Origin: Dehalococcoidia bacterium
GTDB taxonomy: Bacteria > Chloroflexota > Dehalococcoidia > CAUJGQ01
Assembly: GCA_035310145.1 (NCBI GenBank)
Contig: DATGEL010000069.1
Span: 1 to 50,109 of the forward strand
Direction of reading: 5' to 3'
DNA: 50,109 bases
The first letter of the stretch is position 1; every line of letters begins with the position of its first letter. The notes under the pieces are model-generated. The model was not told where the DNA came from. It worked only from the letters and a program-made list of their open reading frames with translations, and did not search any database. The position numbers and the translations under genes are program-made. Below are positions 1 through 5,556 of this stretch, in pieces.

Positions 1-126
1 CAGAACAACACGGGCGTCATCCTGCAGGGCCCGGCGCTGTGGAACACCGCCAGCCTGAGCCAGGCCAACGTCGCCTTCGCGGCCGGCACGCAGAACAACA
101 CCGGCGTGATCGTCCAGGGCCACTAA
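1..126 (+). CDS. Two-repeat curlin-like small protein, 3' part only
   Basis: The window opens inside this gene: 41 codons and a TAA remain. They correspond to residues 21-61 of the complete copy at 471-656, and the DNA is identical to that copy over the full overlap. The segment carries the end of repeat 1 (QNNTGVILQG) and all of repeat 2 (SQANVAF...QNNTGVIVQG). It is the first visible member of a family of small Asn/Gln/Gly/Val-rich proteins without signal peptides. The spacing of N, G and Q recalls curlin repeats, but that resemblance is my reading, not a demonstrated homology. Function unknown. Confidence 0.75.
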   Translation, partial: QNNTGVILQGPALWNTASLSQANVAFAAGTQNNTGVIVQGH

Positions 127-130
127 GTCC
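1..130. repeat. Exact 130-bp direct repeat, copy 1
   Basis: Bases 1-130 are identical to 531-660. The identity starts at or before the window edge, covers the 3' two thirds of the gene and stops four bases after the stop codon, where the flanks diverge. The offset is 530 bp. This implies a recent duplication or gene conversion within the small-protein array. Confidence 0.95.
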
Positions 131-161
131 GTTACGGCAACCGGCGACACACACGCGGATA

Positions 162-179
162 TGCGCCACGAACGGCGCA
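162..179 (+). promoter_or_regulatory. Leader hairpin upstream of repeat-protein gene
   Basis: TGCGCC and GGCGCA form a 6-bp stem around a 6-nt loop, followed by an A-rich spacer and a GGGGAGGG ribosome-binding site. The same arrangement (GCGCC-ACC-GGCGC, then an A-rich spacer and GGGGAGG) precedes the gene at 471. Conservation of the hairpin between two otherwise diverged leaders suggests a role in mRNA stability or translation control. That role is inference. Confidence 0.45.
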
Positions 180-205
180 CAAAGATACAGGGGAGGGAAA
201 ACACC

Positions 206-391
206 ATGGGCTTCAGCAACTACGCGACCCTGAGCCAGCTCAACGCCGCCGTCTTCGCGGGCGTGCAGAACAACACGGGTGTGATCGTGCAGGGCCCGGC
301 CCTGTTCAACACCGCGCACCTGAGCCAGGCCAACGTCGCCTTCGCGGCCGGCACGCAGAACAACACGGGTGTGATCGTCCAGGGCCACTAA
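206..391 (+). CDS. Two-repeat curlin-like small protein (61 aa)
   Basis: A 61-residue protein beginning MGFSNYATLSQLN. The ATG at 206 is chosen over an in-frame ATG at 161 because GGGGAGGG lies 8 nt before it and the sister gene at 471 starts at the same motif. It contains two repeats with an exact period of 30 residues: L9-S-Q-x-N pairs with L39, G-x-QNNTGVIVQ (19-29) with 49-59, and G30 with G60. There is no signal peptide, membrane segment or cysteine. Composition (N, Q, G, V, T, A) suits a beta-solenoid or self-assembling strand stack. Function is unknown; a fibre or surface-layer subunit, or a modified-peptide precursor, are possibilities. The neighbours at 1-126 and 471-656 are close paralogues. 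Confidence 0.8.
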   Translation: MGFSNYATLSQLNAAVFAGVQNNTGVIVQGPALFNTAHLSQANVAFAAGTQNNTGVIVQGH

Positions 392-429
392 GCCCGTTCG
401 ACGGCCAGCCGCACTCCACAAACGAATTC

Positions 430-442
430 GCGCCACCGGCGC
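430..442 (+). promoter_or_regulatory. Leader hairpin upstream of second repeat-protein gene
   Basis: GCGCC-ACC-GGCGC, a 5-bp stem with a 3-nt loop, ends 14 nt before a GGGGAGG ribosome-binding site at 457-463. It corresponds to the hairpin at 162-179 in the leader of the previous paralogue. Confidence 0.45.
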
Positions 443-470
443 ACAGTGAACAAACAGGGGAGGAATCACC

Positions 471-656
471 ATGGGTATCAGCAACTACGCGACCCTGAGC
501 CAGCTCAACCTCGCGGCCTTCGCCGGCGTGCAGAACAACACGGGCGTCATCCTGCAGGGCCCGGCGCTGTGGAACACCGCCAGCCTGAGCCAGGCCAACG
601 TCGCCTTCGCGGCCGGCACGCAGAACAACACCGGCGTGATCGTCCAGGGCCACTAA
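471..656 (+). CDS. Two-repeat curlin-like small protein (61 aa)
   Basis: Paralogue of the 206-391 product, 61 residues, with a perfect GGGGAGG ribosome-binding site 7 nt before the ATG. It has the same two 30-residue repeats. Differences from the sister copy fall mainly in repeat 1 (L14, A15-A16, I28) and in the inter-repeat linker (LWNTAS instead of LFNTAH). Repeat 2 is identical in protein across all three copies, which points to purifying selection or gene conversion. No export signal is visible. Function unknown. Confidence 0.8.
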   Translation: MGISNYATLSQLNLAAFAGVQNNTGVILQGPALWNTASLSQANVAFAAGTQNNTGVIVQGH

Positions 657-660
657 GTCC
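531..660. repeat. Exact 130-bp direct repeat, copy 2
   Basis: Identical to 1-130. Upstream of 531 the gene continues uniquely with respect to this window. Downstream, identity ends four bases past the TAA. Confidence 0.95.
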
Positions 661-673
661 ATCCCACGGCAGG

Positions 674-707
674 CGGCGGGCCGGAAGCTGAACCATCCGG
701 TCCGCCG
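674..707 (+). terminator. Hairpin after repeat-protein genes, possible terminator
   Basis: CGGCGGGCCGG (674-684) pairs with CCGGTCCGCCG (697-707), 11 bp with one G-T pair and a 12-nt loop. The downstream tail is not a real T tract, so intrinsic termination is uncertain. It could end the repeat-protein transcripts or act as an mRNA-processing stem. Confidence 0.4.
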
Positions 708-747
708 CGCCGTTCCCAATCAGATTTCACAGCGAGGAGGTGCGCCC

Positions 748-927
748 ATGCTGCGTTGCACGCTTTGTCACTTCGATTGTCCGTTGGACGACGTAGTCGT
801 CATGCGCGGCGATCGCGGCTGCATCTGCCTGGGCTGCTTCTCGCGCGAGACGGGAACGGCGCTGCGCATGCCGAAGCCGCTCCGGCGGCAGCTCCAGGCC
901 GCTCTGGCCGAACTCGACGCCGTCTAG
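748..927 (+). CDS. Small Cys-rich zinc-ribbon-like protein (59 aa)
   Basis: A 59-residue protein starting at an ATG 7 nt after GAGGAGG. Cysteines occur at 4, 7, 11, 25, 27 and 30, giving a C-x2-C-x3-C ... C-x-C-x2-C pattern, followed by a basic then helical tail (residues 40-59). CxxC pairs about 18-20 residues apart are typical of small zinc ribbons, so metal binding is likely. The two extra cysteines (11 and 25) are unusual. The gene lies between members of the repeat-protein family and shares their orientation, so it may regulate or assist them. No known family recognised. Confidence 0.7.
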   Translation: MLRCTLCHFDCPLDDVVVMRGDRGCICLGCFSRETGTALRMPKPLRRQLQAALAELDAV

Positions 928-982
928 AATCCAGTTCCGGGAGAATGCTTCTGCGAACTTAACCCCTTCAGGGAGGTGCACC

Positions 983-1129
983 ATGGGTCCAGTCGTCGTT
1001 CTGAACAACGTGGGCAGCCCGGTCATCGGTGTTGCCGTGGCCACCATCACGCAGCTCAACATCGCCGGCCTGTACGCGGGCTCGCAGTCGAACGCCGCGA
1101 TCGCGGTGCTCAACGGCATCCGCTTCTAA
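983..1129 (+). CDS. Short repeat-family protein (48 aa)
   Basis: A 48-residue protein with GGGAGG 6 nt before the ATG and the same MG start as its neighbours. The C-terminal half, TQLNIAGLYAGSQSN (residues 23-37), follows the family pattern [ST]-Q-L-N-x-A ... A-G-x-Q-x-N seen in the 61-residue proteins, with one extra residue. The first half is a Val/Gly/Ala-rich strand-like stretch (VVVLNNVGSPVIGVAVATI). It appears to be a single-repeat, diverged member of the family. No cysteines and no signal peptide. Function unknown. Confidence 0.65.
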   Translation: MGPVVVLNNVGSPVIGVAVATITQLNIAGLYAGSQSNAAIAVLNGIRF

Positions 1130-1132
1130 GAC

Positions 1133-1205
1133 ATGGTTCCAAAACCCGCTGGTCGGTGAACGGGGTGAATGCACACCGTGGGCCGGATGCGGGTTTTGGA
1201 ACCAT
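1133..1205. repeat. 17-bp perfect inverted repeat, 39-nt spacer
   Basis: ATGGTTCCAAAACCCGC at 1133-1149 is the exact reverse complement of 1189-1205. The arms begin four bases after the stop of the preceding gene and end 85 nt before the next start. No T tract follows, so it is not a classical terminator. It could be a small non-autonomous mobile element or a processing hairpin. Only one copy is in this window. Confidence 0.7.
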
Positions 1206-1289
1206 CTGCAAAGACCGCTCGCAACGAAGGTCCCGCCCGCCGCGCCCCGATGTCGGGCGCCGGCGGGCGGGGCGCGCAGGAGGCCGATC

Positions 1290-1715
1290 ATGCGTCGCAC
1301 GCGCACCCTTGTGGCGGGGCTCGCCACACTGCTGCTCGGATTGGGCGCGCTCGCCTGCACGCCGGCACGGGCCGACATGGATCCGGGCGCCCAGGCGTAC
1401 TATGTCGTGGTGCTGCCGGCGGACGCGGGCAGCGGCAACAGCAGCAACACTATGCAGATCGTCCAGGTCAACGGCGACAGCAACACGCAGGTGCAGATCA
1501 ACGGCGGCACGGCGACCGTGGGCTGCACGCGCTACAGTAGCTACGACGACGCCAGCGCGGCGGCGAGCCTCGCGCACGCCGACGCCAACTGGAGCGTCGT
1601 GCTGGCGCCGGACGCGCTGCACGCCGTGCTGGCGGCGAGCGGCGTCTCGCCGGACGTGGCCAGCTGGATGCCCGCCCTCGCCGACGCGGACATCTGCACC
1701 CCGGACGCGGGCTAA
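1290..1715 (+). CDS. Exported protein with Asn/Gln-rich strand segment (141 aa)
   Basis: A 141-residue protein. The ATG at 1290 is preceded by CAGGAGG and opens a clear signal peptide (MRRTRTL, hydrophobic core, cleavage expected after ARA near residue 29). The open frame continues upstream, but only this start gives the export signal. Residues about 50-75 read NTMQIVQVNGDSNTQVQING, where Q, N and T alternate as in curlin repeats (Q-x-N-G-x-x-N-x-x-x-Q). The second half has a two-cysteine pattern (GCTRYSS and DICTPDAG) that could form a disulfide around an alpha/beta domain. It may be the exported partner of the surrounding repeat proteins. Function unknown. Confidence 0.7.
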   Translation: MRRTRTLVAGLATLLLGLGALACTPARADMDPGAQAYYVVVLPADAGSGNSSNTMQIVQVNGDSNTQVQINGGTATVGCTRYSSYDDASAAASLAHADANWSVVLAPDALHAVLAASGVSPDVASWMPALADADICTPDAG

Positions 1716-1738
1716 GCGACGCTCGCAGGAGCTGCGCA

Positions 1739-2113
1739 ATGAGCTTCTCATCGTCGGGAAGTGACTGGCTGGAGCAGATCCTGCGCCAGGCGCAGGCGGC
1801 CGCTTCAGGCGTCGCCGCCGGCGGACCGGGCATCTCGCTCTCGCTCTCGCTCTCCGGCAACCGCCGCGTCACGGCGCGGGTGCGCGTCAGTGACGCGGCG
1901 GGGCGGGGACAGGCCGGTGTGCACGTGGATGGGCAGATTCGCATCGACGCTTCCGGCGTGGTCCGCTCGCTCCGCTTTCCGCCGACCGATGCGGCCGGCT
2001 GGACGGAAGTGAGCGCCGAGCTGGCGGGCGAGGCGGGCAGCCGCTGCACCTGCACGGTGGCAGTACGAGCCGGCGGCAGCGTGATGCAGGCGCGGCAAAC
2101 GCTCGTCTGCTGA
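1739..2113 (+). CDS. Unknown protein with probable Ig-like beta-sandwich (124 aa)
   Basis: The ATG at 1739 follows the previous stop by 23 nt, with GCAGGAG upstream, so the two genes are probably cotranscribed. Residues 1-30 are Gly/Ala-rich. Residues 31-120 alternate as beta strands with the pattern V-x-V-x-D-x-x-G-x-x-x-x-G-V-x-V and later a TDAAGW turn, as in bacterial Ig-like or carboxypeptidase-regulatory-like sandwiches. Cysteines sit at CTCT (near 102-104) and at the C-terminus. There is no signal peptide or membrane segment in the chosen frame. Fold assignment is weak and function unknown. The next 225 nt hold no gene I can support. Confidence 0.6.
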   Translation: MSFSSSGSDWLEQILRQAQAAASGVAAGGPGISLSLSLSGNRRVTARVRVSDAAGRGQAGVHVDGQIRIDASGVVRSLRFPPTDAAGWTEVSAELAGEAGSRCTCTVAVRAGGSVMQARQTLVC

Positions 2114-2338
2114 CCCGCCGGCGGCCCCGATCCACGCCTGGCGGTCGCCGAAGTGTGGCCCGCCGCACACGCGCGTCGTGAAGGCGCTCACCGCTTCGCG
2201 CGCCTCTTGGCCGCCTTCTGCGGTCGTGATCGTCATCGGTCGGGCATCGGGCAGCGCACAGCGCCGTCCCGCGCCCACGGTTGATACTGTCATCACAGGG
2301 GACAGCGGCCGCGAGCCGCGGCCGAAGAGGAGGCAACG

Positions 2339-2578
2339 ATGACGATCAATGTGACGGGCAACAACGACACGGTGATCATCCTGAACCAGACGAACATCGC
2401 CTTCGGGTCGGTGGGCAGCCAGAGCAACACGGCGTTCATCGGGACCGGTGCGCTGGGCGGCGTTGCGGCCCCCAACCTGAACCCGGCGGCCTACGGTGTG
2501 GCCGCTCAGCCGCCGTCGATCGTGCCCCAGCCGCAGGTGTGGAACCCCTTCGGCAGCGGCGTGGTGCTGATGCACTAA
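2339..2578 (+). CDS. Repeat-family protein with proline-rich tail (79 aa)
   Basis: A 79-residue protein with AGAGGAGG 5 nt before the ATG. The N-terminal half has two strand-like segments, GNNDTVIILNQTN (7-19) and IAFGSVGSQSNTAFIGTGAL (20-39), matching the family pattern N-x-A ... G-x-Q-x-N-T. The C-terminal half is Pro/Ala/Gly-rich (QPPSIVPQPQVWNPF). It is the most distant member of the local family and the last before a strong terminator. No signal peptide, no cysteine. Function unknown. Confidence 0.7.
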   Translation: MTINVTGNNDTVIILNQTNIAFGSVGSQSNTAFIGTGALGGVAAPNLNPAAYGVAAQPPSIVPQPQVWNPFGSGVVLMH

Positions 2579-2600
2579 GCCGCGGTGCGGAAGCAAACGA

Positions 2601-2630
2601 CGGCCCGCACCGCGATCGTGGTGCGGGCCG
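2601..2630 (+). terminator. Terminator after small-protein array
   Basis: CGGCCCGCACC pairs perfectly with GGTGCGGGCCG (11 bp, 8-nt loop), 23 nt after the stop of the 79-residue protein, followed by CTTGTGTGT. The stem is strong and the T tail modest. Confidence 0.7.
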
Positions 2631-2764
2631 CTTGTGTGTCTCCACGCAACGCACAGCGCGCGAGTCGGCAGGGCACCGGCGACCGGTGCACGAATCCGCG
2701 GTAAGCTATCGTTTGCGTGGGTGTGAGGCGATCTGTCTTGGCCCATCTCTTCGCGATCCCGACC

Positions 2765-4297
2765 ATGCGACGAAACGCCGGCAGCGGGCGCCCGTTCGGC
2801 GGACGCCTGCTGCCGGCGCTCCTGCTCGCCCTCTGTGCGCTGCTGGGGCCGGCCCGCGCCGCCCGCGGCGCCCAGGCGGCAGCGGGCACGCCGGTGACGT
2901 ACAGCGCCGGTTGGAACCTGGTGGCGCTGCCTTCCGGGACCGTCCTGCCGGCGAGCGTCGGTCCTGCCTACTCGCTTACGGCAGACGGCAACGCCTACGA
3001 GCAGGTGGCGAACGGCGGCGCCGTCGGCGGTCGGGCGCTTTGGATCTTCTTCCCGCAGGACACGACGCTGACGCTTGACCGCAGCGCCGCAGAGACGAGC
3101 CGCACCGTGGCGCCGCCCGGCCAGCACGCGCTGGTCGGCAACCCGAGCAGCGACGCCACGCTCGACATCAGCGGCGCCGACGCCGCGTACAGCTTCGATC
3201 CGCAGCAGGGCTGGGAGGCCGTGACCTCGCTGGAGCCGGGCCGCGGCGCACTGGTGCAGGTCGGCGCGGCGGGCAGCGTGACGCTTGGCAAAGTGACGGG
3301 CGATGCGCTTGATGCGACGCTGAACCAGCTCCAGAACACGCTGAGCGACGCGCCCACCGACCGTGACGCCGTCGAAGGCGTGGCGCGCGTGGCGGGCGAA
3401 TTGCTGCGCAGCCGCCAGTACGCACGCGTGCAGGCGCTGCTCGACGACATGCGCCGGACACAAGAGGAGGGGCTGCGCCGCACCGGCAGCGCCCCACTGC
3501 CGGCGCTTTCCGCGAACGAGCAGCGCGCCGTCGTTACCGTGCGAGAGAACGTGGCCGCGGCGCGCGATGCCACAGACGCCGGCTCGGTGGCGGCGGCCGA
3601 CGCCGCGATCGAGCAGGCTCGAACGGCGGCGCAGGCGGCCAGCGATGAAGCGGTCGCCGTGGCCCGCGGCGGCGATGCCGCGCCGGCGTCGCTGAGCTGG
3701 GAGGCCGCCGGCCAGTCCGCACCGAATACCGGTCTCGCGGCCGCGGGCGCCTTGCTGCGCGGCACCTTGCTGCTGACCGGCCTGGGTACACCGCCGTCGG
3801 ATATGGTCTGGACGCTCGTGAGCACGCTCAGCAGCGGCGGCGCCTGCCAGGTCACGCCGGCCGCGTTCACCCTGGACGGCGAAGAGCAGCGCATGCTTGC
3901 GCTGGTCAACCAGTTGCGCGCGGCGCACGGCCTGGCGCCGCTGCAGCTCTCCGCGAACCTCGAACGCACCGCGGCCTGGAAGGCGCACGACATGGTCACG
4001 CGGCAGTCGTACGGGCACGAGGACGGCTTCGGCTCGCTGGTCGCCCGCTTCGACGCCTGCGGCTATCCGGCCGGAGAGGCGGCGATCGCCGAGAATCTCA
4101 ACGGCGGCCAGCCCGGCGCCGACGCGGTCTTCGCCGACTGGCAGAGCGACTCCAGCCATCTCGGCAACCTGCTCGGGCCGGACTACGTCGTCGCCGGCAT
4201 CAAGCGCGCCCCGGCCGCGTCCAACGGCGGCACCTATAGCTGGGTTTGGGTGATGGAGTTCGGCAGCGCCGTGGACACGCTGCTGCCGAACCCCTGA
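2765..4297 (+). CDS. Secreted CAP/SCP-domain protein with N-terminal beta domain
   Basis: 510 residues from the ATG at 2765, chosen because it opens a signal peptide (MRRNAG, hydrophobic LLPALLLALCALLG, ARA near residue 30). A GTG at 2717 would add 16 residues. Residues about 35-150 form a beta-rich domain opening with YSAGWNLVALP, a motif I associate with secreted proteins. Residues about 160-300 are Ala-rich helical and may form a stalk or coiled coil. The C-terminal 140 residues match the CAP (SCP/PR-1, YkwD-like) superfamily: LVNQLRAAHGLAPLQLS, the HDM and YGHEDG stretch, and AENLNGG. The CAP domain is usually extracellular, and its activity in bacteria is poorly defined. Cell-surface or secreted role inferred. 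Confidence 0.8.
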   Translation: MRRNAGSGRPFGGRLLPALLLALCALLGPARAARGAQAAAGTPVTYSAGWNLVALPSGTVLPASVGPAYSLTADGNAYEQVANGGAVGGRALWIFFPQDTTLTLDRSAAETSRTVAPPGQHALVGNPSSDATLDISGADAAYSFDPQQGWEAVTSLEPGRGALVQVGAAGSVTLGKVTGDALDATLNQLQNTLSDAPTDRDAVEGVARVAGELLRSRQYARVQALLDDMRRTQEEGLRRTGSAPLPALSANEQRAVVTVRENVAAARDATDAGSVAAADAAIEQARTAAQAASDEAVAVARGGDAAPASLSWEAAGQSAPNTGLAAAGALLRGTLLLTGLGTPPSDMVWTLVSTLSSGGACQVTPAAFTLDGEEQRMLALVNQLRAAHGLAPLQLSANLERTAAWKAHDMVTRQSYGHEDGFGSLVARFDACGYPAGEAAIAENLNGGQPGADAVFADWQSDSSHLGNLLGPDYVVAGIKRAPAASNGGTYSWVWVMEFGSAVDTLLPNP

Positions 4298-4350
4298 TCG
4301 CCGCCCCTCGTTCCCCTCGTAGCGGCACCACCCTCCGTGTGGCGTCGCGC

Positions 4351-4379
4351 TGGACGCAACGCGGAGCGCGTCGTACGGT
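4351..4379 (+). promoter_or_regulatory. Probable sigma-70-type promoter
   Basis: TGGACG (4351-4356), a 17-bp spacer, then TACGGT (4374-4379) and an A-rich start region. It lies 68 nt before the ATG of the Rieske-fusion gene and may drive that gene and the CoA-transferase pair. Confidence 0.5.
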
Positions 4380-4446
4380 AAAAATCGGCGCCGAGAAGGC
4401 GCCGGCGCGTCGGCCGGTCCGGCGGGCGCGAGGGGAGGTTTCGCGC

Positions 4447-5556
4447 ATGCCAGCGGTGCTCGCCATCACGCCGGAGGAGCGGCCGGTCTTCGCGTTCATC
4501 GCGGCGCGCAGTATTCCCATCTGCGCGAAGGGCACGCGGGAGCAGCAGGAGGTCGCGGAGCGGCTGGTCTACATCTCCCGCGCCCTGGACGACGCGCCCC
4601 CCGGCCCCGGCGAGATCGAGCTGTTTGTCGAGGACATCTACCACCTGGGCGTGCGCATCTTCGCCTACAGCGTCGACGTCGAAGAGTTCTGGCACGATCG
4701 CCTCGCCGAGGCGCGCGGCCAGGCCCCGATCGAGCCGGTCGACCCCAACGTGGAGCTGGCGATCCGCCGCTATCTGCCCCAGGCCGAGCAGAGCCCGCAG
4801 AGCTGGAGCTTCCGCCAGGTAGACGGCGCCTTCGTCGATCTCGGCTTCAAGTTCGACCGCCTGCTCGATGCGGAGGCGCCGCAGGTGCGCGGCCTCTACA
4901 ACAAGGAGCGCACCACGATCTCGAACACGGCCCGCGAGCGGCGCGAGAAGAACGCGATCAAGCGCGGCGTCGTCTCGCCGCTCGACGCCGCGACGCCGCC
5001 GGCCCTGCCGGCGCCCGACGGGGCCGCGCAGGCGGCGGAGGCCACTGCCGGCCACGCGGACGAGGATGCCGAGCCGGCCTGGCCGCGTCCCGTTGGTAAT
5101 GCCGCCGCCCGGCCCCAGCCGAGCGCCGCGCTCTCCACGATCAGCCGTGCGACCTTTCCCGACGCCTACGGCTGGGGCGTCGATGTCGCGACCGGGGTAA
5201 GCGCGGACACGCTGGCGCCGGACAAGCCGCGCAAGGTCAACGTCGGCGGCGTAGAGATGATGCTCGTGAACACGGAGGGGGTGGTCTGCGCCGCGGCCCG
5301 CACCTGCCCGCACCGTGGTTGGGACTTGACGCGCGGCACGGTCGAGAATGGCCTGCTCACCTGCAGCTTGCACGGGGCCCAGTTTGAGGTCTGCTCCGGC
5401 AAGGTCGTGCGCGAGCCGTACGACCCGGCCTTCAACAAAGAGAACACGCTGATGGGCAGCGTGATGGGCGCCCTCGATCCGAAGCACACGACGGACCCGA
5501 TCGCCACCTATCCGACCACGGTGGCCGCAGACGGTGAGGTCCACGTTCACATCTAG
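4447..5556 (+). CDS. Rieske [2Fe-2S] protein with unknown N-terminal domain
   Basis: 369 residues; the ATG at 4447 has GGGGAGG 8 nt upstream. The last 130 residues are a Rieske-type domain: C287-P-H289-R-G ... C306-S-L-H309-G-A-Q-F, the ferredoxin or dioxygenase-type ligand set, without the extra disulfide cysteines of bc1 Rieske proteins. It should therefore be a soluble electron carrier or an oxygenase component. Residues 1-165 form an unrecognised, mostly helical domain (FIAARSIPICAKGT, then many acidic residues). Residues 185-240 are a Pro/Ala-rich linker. No catalytic mononuclear-iron domain is seen. It sits 28 nt before a CoA-transferase pair. Partner and substrate unknown. Confidence 0.8.
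   Translation: MPAVLAITPEERPVFAFIAARSIPICAKGTREQQEVAERLVYISRALDDAPPGPGEIELFVEDIYHLGVRIFAYSVDVEEFWHDRLAEARGQAPIEPVDPNVELAIRRYLPQAEQSPQSWSFRQVDGAFVDLGFKFDRLLDAEAPQVRGLYNKERTTISNTARERREKNAIKRGVVSPLDAATPPALPAPDGAAQAAEATAGHADEDAEPAWPRPVGNAAARPQPSAALSTISRATFPDAYGWGVDVATGVSADTLAPDKPRKVNVGGVEMMLVNTEGVVCAAARTCPHRGWDLTRGTVENGLLTCSLHGAQFEVCSGKVVREPYDPAFNKENTLMGSVMGALDPKHTTDPIATYPTTVAADGEVHVHI

Follow-up and report, generated by a model that had tools for sequence, protein, structure and literature searches.

The window analysed here, a 50,109-nucleotide stretch of DNA from a Dehalococcoidia bacterium (assembly GCA_035310145.1, contig DATGEL010000069.1), is the entire contig C69; the genome assembly, of 5.3 Mb in 148 contigs, is 99.8% complete. 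Its first 2.6 kb contain a cluster of genes, all on the + strand, that includes one truncated and four complete genes encoding small proteins rich in Gln and Asn, designated QN proteins. An earlier note on this DNA had placed all five frames correctly and had listed three 61-residue proteins among them. Two of these (206..391 and 471..656) are complete, uncharged proteins of 61 residues, with ATG start codons preceded by GGGGAGGG and GGGGAGGAA, respectively, whereas the third (1..126) is a 3′-fragment of 41 codons, cut off by the contig end. It has three curlin half-kernels and, as with the two complete genes, is of a type with two repeats, here termed two-arch. The remaining two genes encode one-arch proteins, with 48 residues (983..1129) and with 79 residues that include a Pro-rich C-terminal tail (2339..2578). 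Positions 1-130 are an exact copy of positions 531-660 (130 nt, the end of the 471-656 gene), which suggests that the assembly break fell inside the QN gene array, an exact repeat of this kind being a typical site for such a break. As the sequences that follow the two 130-nt copies differ, a further QN copy probably exists upstream of base 1.

A protein search of the genome identified two more two-repeat members on a second contig, C6, both 59 residues long (L006:4706-4885 and, with a GTG start, L006:4989-5168), and this cluster also contains a 46-residue one-arch protein, C5444 (L006:5444-5584). When only the five long members were used for a profile, the short members, three in number, ranked directly after them in the genome, at E-values of 0.015-0.09 (0.0175 for 983..1129 and 0.0148 for 2339..2578, self excluded). 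A profile of all eight genes, for which the E-values of members are partly by construction, matched the genome at these two loci only, at E 1e-20 to 4e-11 (1.8e-14 and 3.8e-11 for the same two proteins, self included), and revealed no ninth member. The local gene family that the earlier note had proposed is a true one, with eight genes recovered at two loci. The gene order is also the same at both, two-repeat genes being followed by a one-repeat gene and then by a gene for an exported protein. In the window this is a 141-residue protein (1290..1715, +) with a signal sequence, MRRTRT..., then a hydrophobic stretch and an ARA cleavage-like site; on C6 it is a 133-residue paralogue encoded 3′ of the QN genes (L006:6577-6978). 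The two are 54% identical, are the only copies in the genome, belong to no known family and share two cysteines, Cys79 and Cys136 in the numbering of the window copy, both in the mature part.

All four complete QN genes of the window have a Shine-Dalgarno-like, purine-rich sequence just 5′ of the ATG. The GC fraction of QN genes is about 0.6, 0.43-0.48 and 0.90-1.00 at the first, second and third codon positions, respectively (0.97 at the third in 206..391), a strong coding signature. The composition of the encoded proteins is extreme, as the 61-residue members have no charged residue and 14 Gln/Asn, compared with means of 13.6 (minimum 1) for charged residues and 4.0 for Gln/Asn in 61-residue stretches of the long, real open reading frames of the window. 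Equal silent and replacement rates had been named as an outcome that would speak against the family. For the pair 206-391 and 471-656 the rates are unequal, with 0.23 synonymous (dS) and 0.07 nonsynonymous (dN) substitutions per site (Fisher P = 0.017); for the two-arch pair on C6 the values (dN 0.20, dS 0.25) are, overall, not distinguishable. Between the loci, dS is 0.68-0.78 and dN 0.36-0.45.

The 59- to 61-residue members consist of two repeats of 30-31 residues and the remaining members of one, and the period reported for the 61-residue members is indeed exactly 30, relating residues 5 to 35 and 23 to 53. In the published description, a curlin repeat has the kernel N-$-Psi-$-Psi-$-Q, then X-G-X-X and a second such kernel, with a repeat length of 23 +/- 5 (PMC10192328). 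At the level of this half-repeat, N-x-Psi-x-Psi-x-Q, the match of the QN proteins is exact, and so closer than the resemblance to curlin-type strands first noticed. There are four kernels in each complete two-arch protein and two in C5444. Those of the C69 two-arch type read NYATLSQ ... NTGVILQ ... NTASLSQ ... NTGVIVQ, those of the 206..391 product NYATLSQ, NTGVIVQ, NTAHLSQ and NTGVIVQ, those of the C6 type NFVALGQ ... NAAGIGQ ... NVALVGQ ... NTALIVQ, and those of C5444 NFAVAFQ ... NTLSITQ; for comparison, E. coli CsgB contains NTAMIIQ and CsgA NSALALQ. These counts were equalled in 0, 0, 0, 1 and 9 of 20,000 shuffles of the two-arch proteins and C5444, and the background in long open reading frames is 2 kernels in 13,093 residues. 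In the 48- and 79-residue proteins the kernels are degenerate, the first motif (a) having no Asn and the second (b) no Gln; in 983..1129 the changes are N to A and Q to L, respectively.

From the start of kernel a to that of kernel b there are 18 or 19 residues, and from kernel b to the next kernel a 12, whereas both distances are about 11 residues in curlin. The difference arises because the first arc is enlarged and contains an invariant Q-x-N-x-A...G-x-Q. Eleven units align unforced over strand a, arc and strand b, with six invariant positions, Q, N, A, G, Q and N, and the extra length accommodates an invariant x-N-x-A, by which strand a is longer, the arc Gly and a Gln two residues before kernel b. 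Judged from these alignments, the QN unit looks like a curlin arch extended at one end by an additional Gln/Asn layer.

The alternation of residues in the kernel was used, with the family consensus in view, to assign strand positions to an inward and an outward face, giving 20 outward and 22 inward codons per gene pair. Sister copies differ by 15 strand replacements, 11 in the C6 pair and 4 in the window pair, all of which are outward (combined Fisher P 2.7e-6), and silent differences are present in six inward codons. Across units, the mean column entropy is 0.33 bits at inward and 1.81 bits at outward positions (permutation P 2e-4). Outward positions are occupied by V, T, A, L, S, F and G, with hardly any charge. 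Alternation of faces within a pair of sister genes is independent of any alignment, and the one-face pattern is as expected of stacked β-strands under selection on one face; such a pattern provides a test for stacked β-arches that requires only sequence. It bears also on whether the frames are genes at all. That they are spurious frames in a GC-rich repeat might be argued from the other frames, which are open too, as is usual at 69% GC, but the codon-position GC, the ribosome-binding sites, the diverged second locus, dN below dS in the window pair and conservation confined to one face leave this explanation with hardly any credibility.

AlphaFold2, given the eight family sequences, predicts strands at residues 4-15, 20-29, 34-45 and 50-59 for the two-arch type (471..656), and so a 30-residue period, with a predicted local distance difference test score (pLDDT) of 75 and a predicted template modelling score (pTM) of 0.50. 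A Foldseek search with this model returned 16 weak matches, none significant, mostly to parallel β-solenoids and amyloids, among them FHA, HET-s, SufD, FapC, GlmU, bactofilin and an ice-binding protein. FapC (Foldseek E 3.3) was also the sole row, and the sole chain with Z of 2 or more, in the VIA second look, where 56 residues aligned with Z 2.2 and a root-mean-square deviation of 3.3, again not significant. These results agree with a stacked arch, short of proof.

We consider it probable that the QN proteins are minimal β-arch subunits that stack into an amyloid-like fibre, and regard the β-arch fold itself as well supported. Of the possibilities raised in the earlier note, a self-assembling β-arch or β-solenoid is the best reading. 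Each subunit would consist of one or two arches. In an arch, strand a (N-x-Psi-x-Psi-x-Q-x-N-x-A) would be long and would lead through a tight arc containing Gly into strand b (Q-x-N-x-Psi-x-Psi-x-Q), and GPALW or GPAGV would form another, short arc that joins one arch to the next. The Asn, Gln, Ala and Ile residues would point inward and form ladders, with alternate residues pointing outward, as in curlin repeats. Within two-arch proteins the arches would be in register, as both the prediction and the substitution pattern suggest. With open edges and similar arches, subunit is expected to stack on subunit, and such head-to-tail stacking would generate a cross-β fibre in which the one-arch members could serve as minor or end subunits. 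Given an outward face without charge and with mild hydrophobicity, bundling of the fibres or a hydrophobic coat made of them would be expected. The predicted fold, a short solenoid, would also suit small monomeric β-solenoid binding proteins, for example ice- or surface-binding ones, that do not polymerise, and the fast divergence of the outward face between copies is what a binding face could show. A stable lone solenoid would, however, need more than one or two arches, there is no regular T-x-T array, and the open edges and identical inward residues favour stacking, so that a monomeric function seems improbable.

Several results weigh against a stacked, curli-like fibre. No match to the curlin repeat family Curlin_rpt (PF07012) was obtained at either QN locus in a genome search at E <= 10, and CsgG (PF03783) was not found in this 99.8% complete genome at E <= 1 in a search whose control was positive in E. 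coli and others. As had been claimed, no signal peptide is recognisable by hydropathy and charge in the seven complete QN members. The profile of the QN unit scores CsgA like its shuffles, and CsgB slightly above (2 of 447 shuffles). The P values based on faces are somewhat optimistic, given that the faces were assigned with the family consensus visible; the AlphaFold2 model was built on only eight sequences from a single genome; the top Foldseek match has an E-value of 0.69 and the lone VIA row a Z of 2.2; and both polymerisation and cellular location are steps that we infer. A scan of the QN proteins with hmmscan likewise gave no Curlin_rpt match. A match to Curlin_rpt on a further contig, C78, was rejected, as it overlaps what appears to be a tRNA gene and is probably not a protein.

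The main rival is that the fold is the same but its assembly intracellular, giving a filament or an inclusion in the cytoplasm that is never exported. The seven complete members have no Lys or Arg among their first eight residues, low hydropathy and no long hydrophobic core, all of which sets them apart from their exported neighbour and fits a cytoplasmic location, as do the missing CsgG and an Ig-like neighbour that also has no signal peptide (1739..2113). As there is neither a signal peptide nor CsgG, a curli-like extracellular assembly would need an unknown route. An exported protein is, however, present at both clusters, and the cytoplasm would be an awkward place for sticky, uncharged outer faces, and we regard a purely intracellular assembly as rather unlikely. 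For an extracellular fibre of stacked QN subunits, the exported protein would be a candidate anchor or partner. The earlier note had seen a related repeat in its QVNGDSNTQVQ stretch. This is not the family repeat, as its single kernel is close to chance expectation (915 of 20,000 shuffles) and is missing from the paralogue, and the idea that this stretch is an amyloid nucleator was discarded as unsupported. An AlphaFold2 model of the exported protein was poor (pLDDT 49.5) and was not used, and sub-threshold matches of this protein or its paralogue to a Shiga toxin subunit, a phage neck terminator and GH45 (E 0.006-0.07) were taken as chance.

The neighbouring genes bear on a further suggestion, that the QN proteins are precursors of ribosomally made, modified peptides. 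They are short, repetitive, rich in Asn and encoded in tandem copies, as such precursors might be, but they have no Cys and no leader with a conserved cleavage site, the invariant face pattern covers the entire protein, and no modification enzyme or dedicated transporter gene adjoins either cluster, the typed neighbours encoding a Rieske protein, an AA-kinase, a LuxR regulator and a major facilitator superfamily transporter. We regard this suggestion as very improbable. Directly upstream of the C6 cluster is a gene for a receiver-LuxR-type regulator (L006:3499-4224); in E. coli, csgD, likewise a regulator gene, adjoins csgBA. Further upstream are two neighbouring genes of the AA-kinase type (L006:1526-2338 and 2342-3220; Pfam AA_kinase was tested for the second), whose products we take to be similar to the subunit pair of molybdenum storage protein.

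Amid the QN genes of the window, an open reading frame at 748..927 (+) encodes a Cys-rich protein of 59 residues, LRCTLCHFDC ... CICLGC (C-x2-C ... C-x-C-x2-C type), that is possibly a zinc ribbon, and for which a Pfam scan gave no match. The Ig-like neighbour (1739..2113, +) has 124 residues and matches Pfam Big_1 at E 0.011, under the cut-off. It has no clear relationship to the product of the C6 gene at the equivalent place, and its gene is an uncertain member of the QN system. Directly 3′ of the last QN gene, a terminator-like hairpin of 13 pairs (2601..2630, +) likely marks the end of the cluster, although such hairpins are a weak signal, with 4 sites versus 1.7 expected in shuffles. Between the 48-residue QN gene and the exported-protein gene there is a perfect 17-nt inverted repeat, 1133-1149 and 1189-1205 (ATGGTTCCAAAACCCGC and GCGGGTTTTGGAACCAT), with arms 39 nt apart, the sole such pair in the window and possibly a small mobile element or hairpin regulator. 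An Rfam scan of positions 1-5000 gave no match. Past the terminator-like hairpin, a 526-residue protein (2717-4297) has a C-terminal CAP domain (E 1.4e-10) and is probably unrelated to the QN cluster.

Scans of Pfam, NCBIfam and PHROGs and a profile search of the PDB gave no matches, or sub-threshold ones only, for the QN proteins, and so no match to any known family, non-structural or otherwise. Searches for relatives covered about 800 related genomes in all, and the only matches to the QN family were in the source genome, both among 400 genomes of the phylum (E <= 0.001) and among 393 of the class (0.01); the family was not found in the one other genome of the taxonomic family. Conservation of the frames among relatives, the lack of which the earlier note had named as a refutation, was not observed, as no relative searched carries the family. 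In the 400 phylum genomes a wider QN profile gave nothing above threshold. Three weak matches (G269, G305 and G398) were rejected because their E-values were high for a search of 400 genomes, and two of these have internal stops as well; four more (G402, G020, G627 and G442) were rejected for high E-values over the genomes searched. Scans of genome, virus, phage and plasmid collections, sensitive to close or pattern-matching relatives only, found none, and the exported protein likewise has no convincing relative in the related genomes. As far as these searches reach, the QN system appears restricted to its lineage.

A tentative extension, which we hold with less than even confidence, is that the QN proteins represent a separate class of functional amyloid, in which minimal, leaderless subunits with one or two enlarged, curlin-like arches polymerise together into an uncharged fibre, in a lineage that has no csg machinery, with an unknown export route and a small exported partner. 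Known curli-type kernels occur in long, signal-bearing proteins handled by CsgG. If the fibre is real, one- and two-arch subunits would rank with the smallest units of this fold in nature, would be easy to synthesise and would allow one to ask how few arches suffice for assembly, what an enlarged arch does to a fibre and how a leaderless amyloid subunit is handled.

Among known surface amyloids, the chaplins and rodlins of Streptomyces are similar in being small, hydrophobic, multi-copy proteins of a monoderm. Chaplins and rodlins carry signal peptides, and the QN proteins match neither family in Pfam or NCBIfam scans. Phenol-soluble modulins have no leader and have dedicated export. They are amphipathic helices, unlike the β-arches predicted here, so that no sequence kinship is expected and the analogy extends only to export without a Sec signal; for these short staphylococcal peptides, an ability to form amyloid at the cell surface has been described (PMC4261907). 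FapB and FapC of Pseudomonas resemble the QN proteins in their Asn/Gln-rich repeats and in having invariant Asn/Gln in the inner core, but FapC is built from three long repeats plus linkers and includes a Greek-key layer (PMC12392863), in place of single short arches.

The closest comparison is with CsgA and CsgB. A survey in 2012 (PMC3521004) documented curli systems in Proteobacteria and Bacteroidetes and in a single strain each of Firmicutes and Thermodesulfobacteria, and kernel-bearing sequences outside Csg operons have been reported from Sinorhizobium fredii (PMC10192328). By sequence criteria the QN proteins are not members of the curli system, having no Curlin_rpt match, no recognisable signal peptide and no CsgG in their genome and differing in repeat length and number, in line with the earlier view that these are not standard curli. 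The period is 30-31 residues rather than about 22-23, with strand a and the first arc lengthened; there are one or two repeats rather than four or more; and the outward residues are uncharged and mildly hydrophobic, whereas those of curlin are mainly polar or charged (PMC10192328). As in CsgA and CsgB, there are several copies per genome, both strands of each long unit carry the half-repeat kernel, the arc contains Gly, inward and outward residues alternate, and Gln/Asn ladders are expected. The QN unit may therefore work like a curlin repeat, the shared kernel possibly resulting from convergence, with common descent a candidate only.

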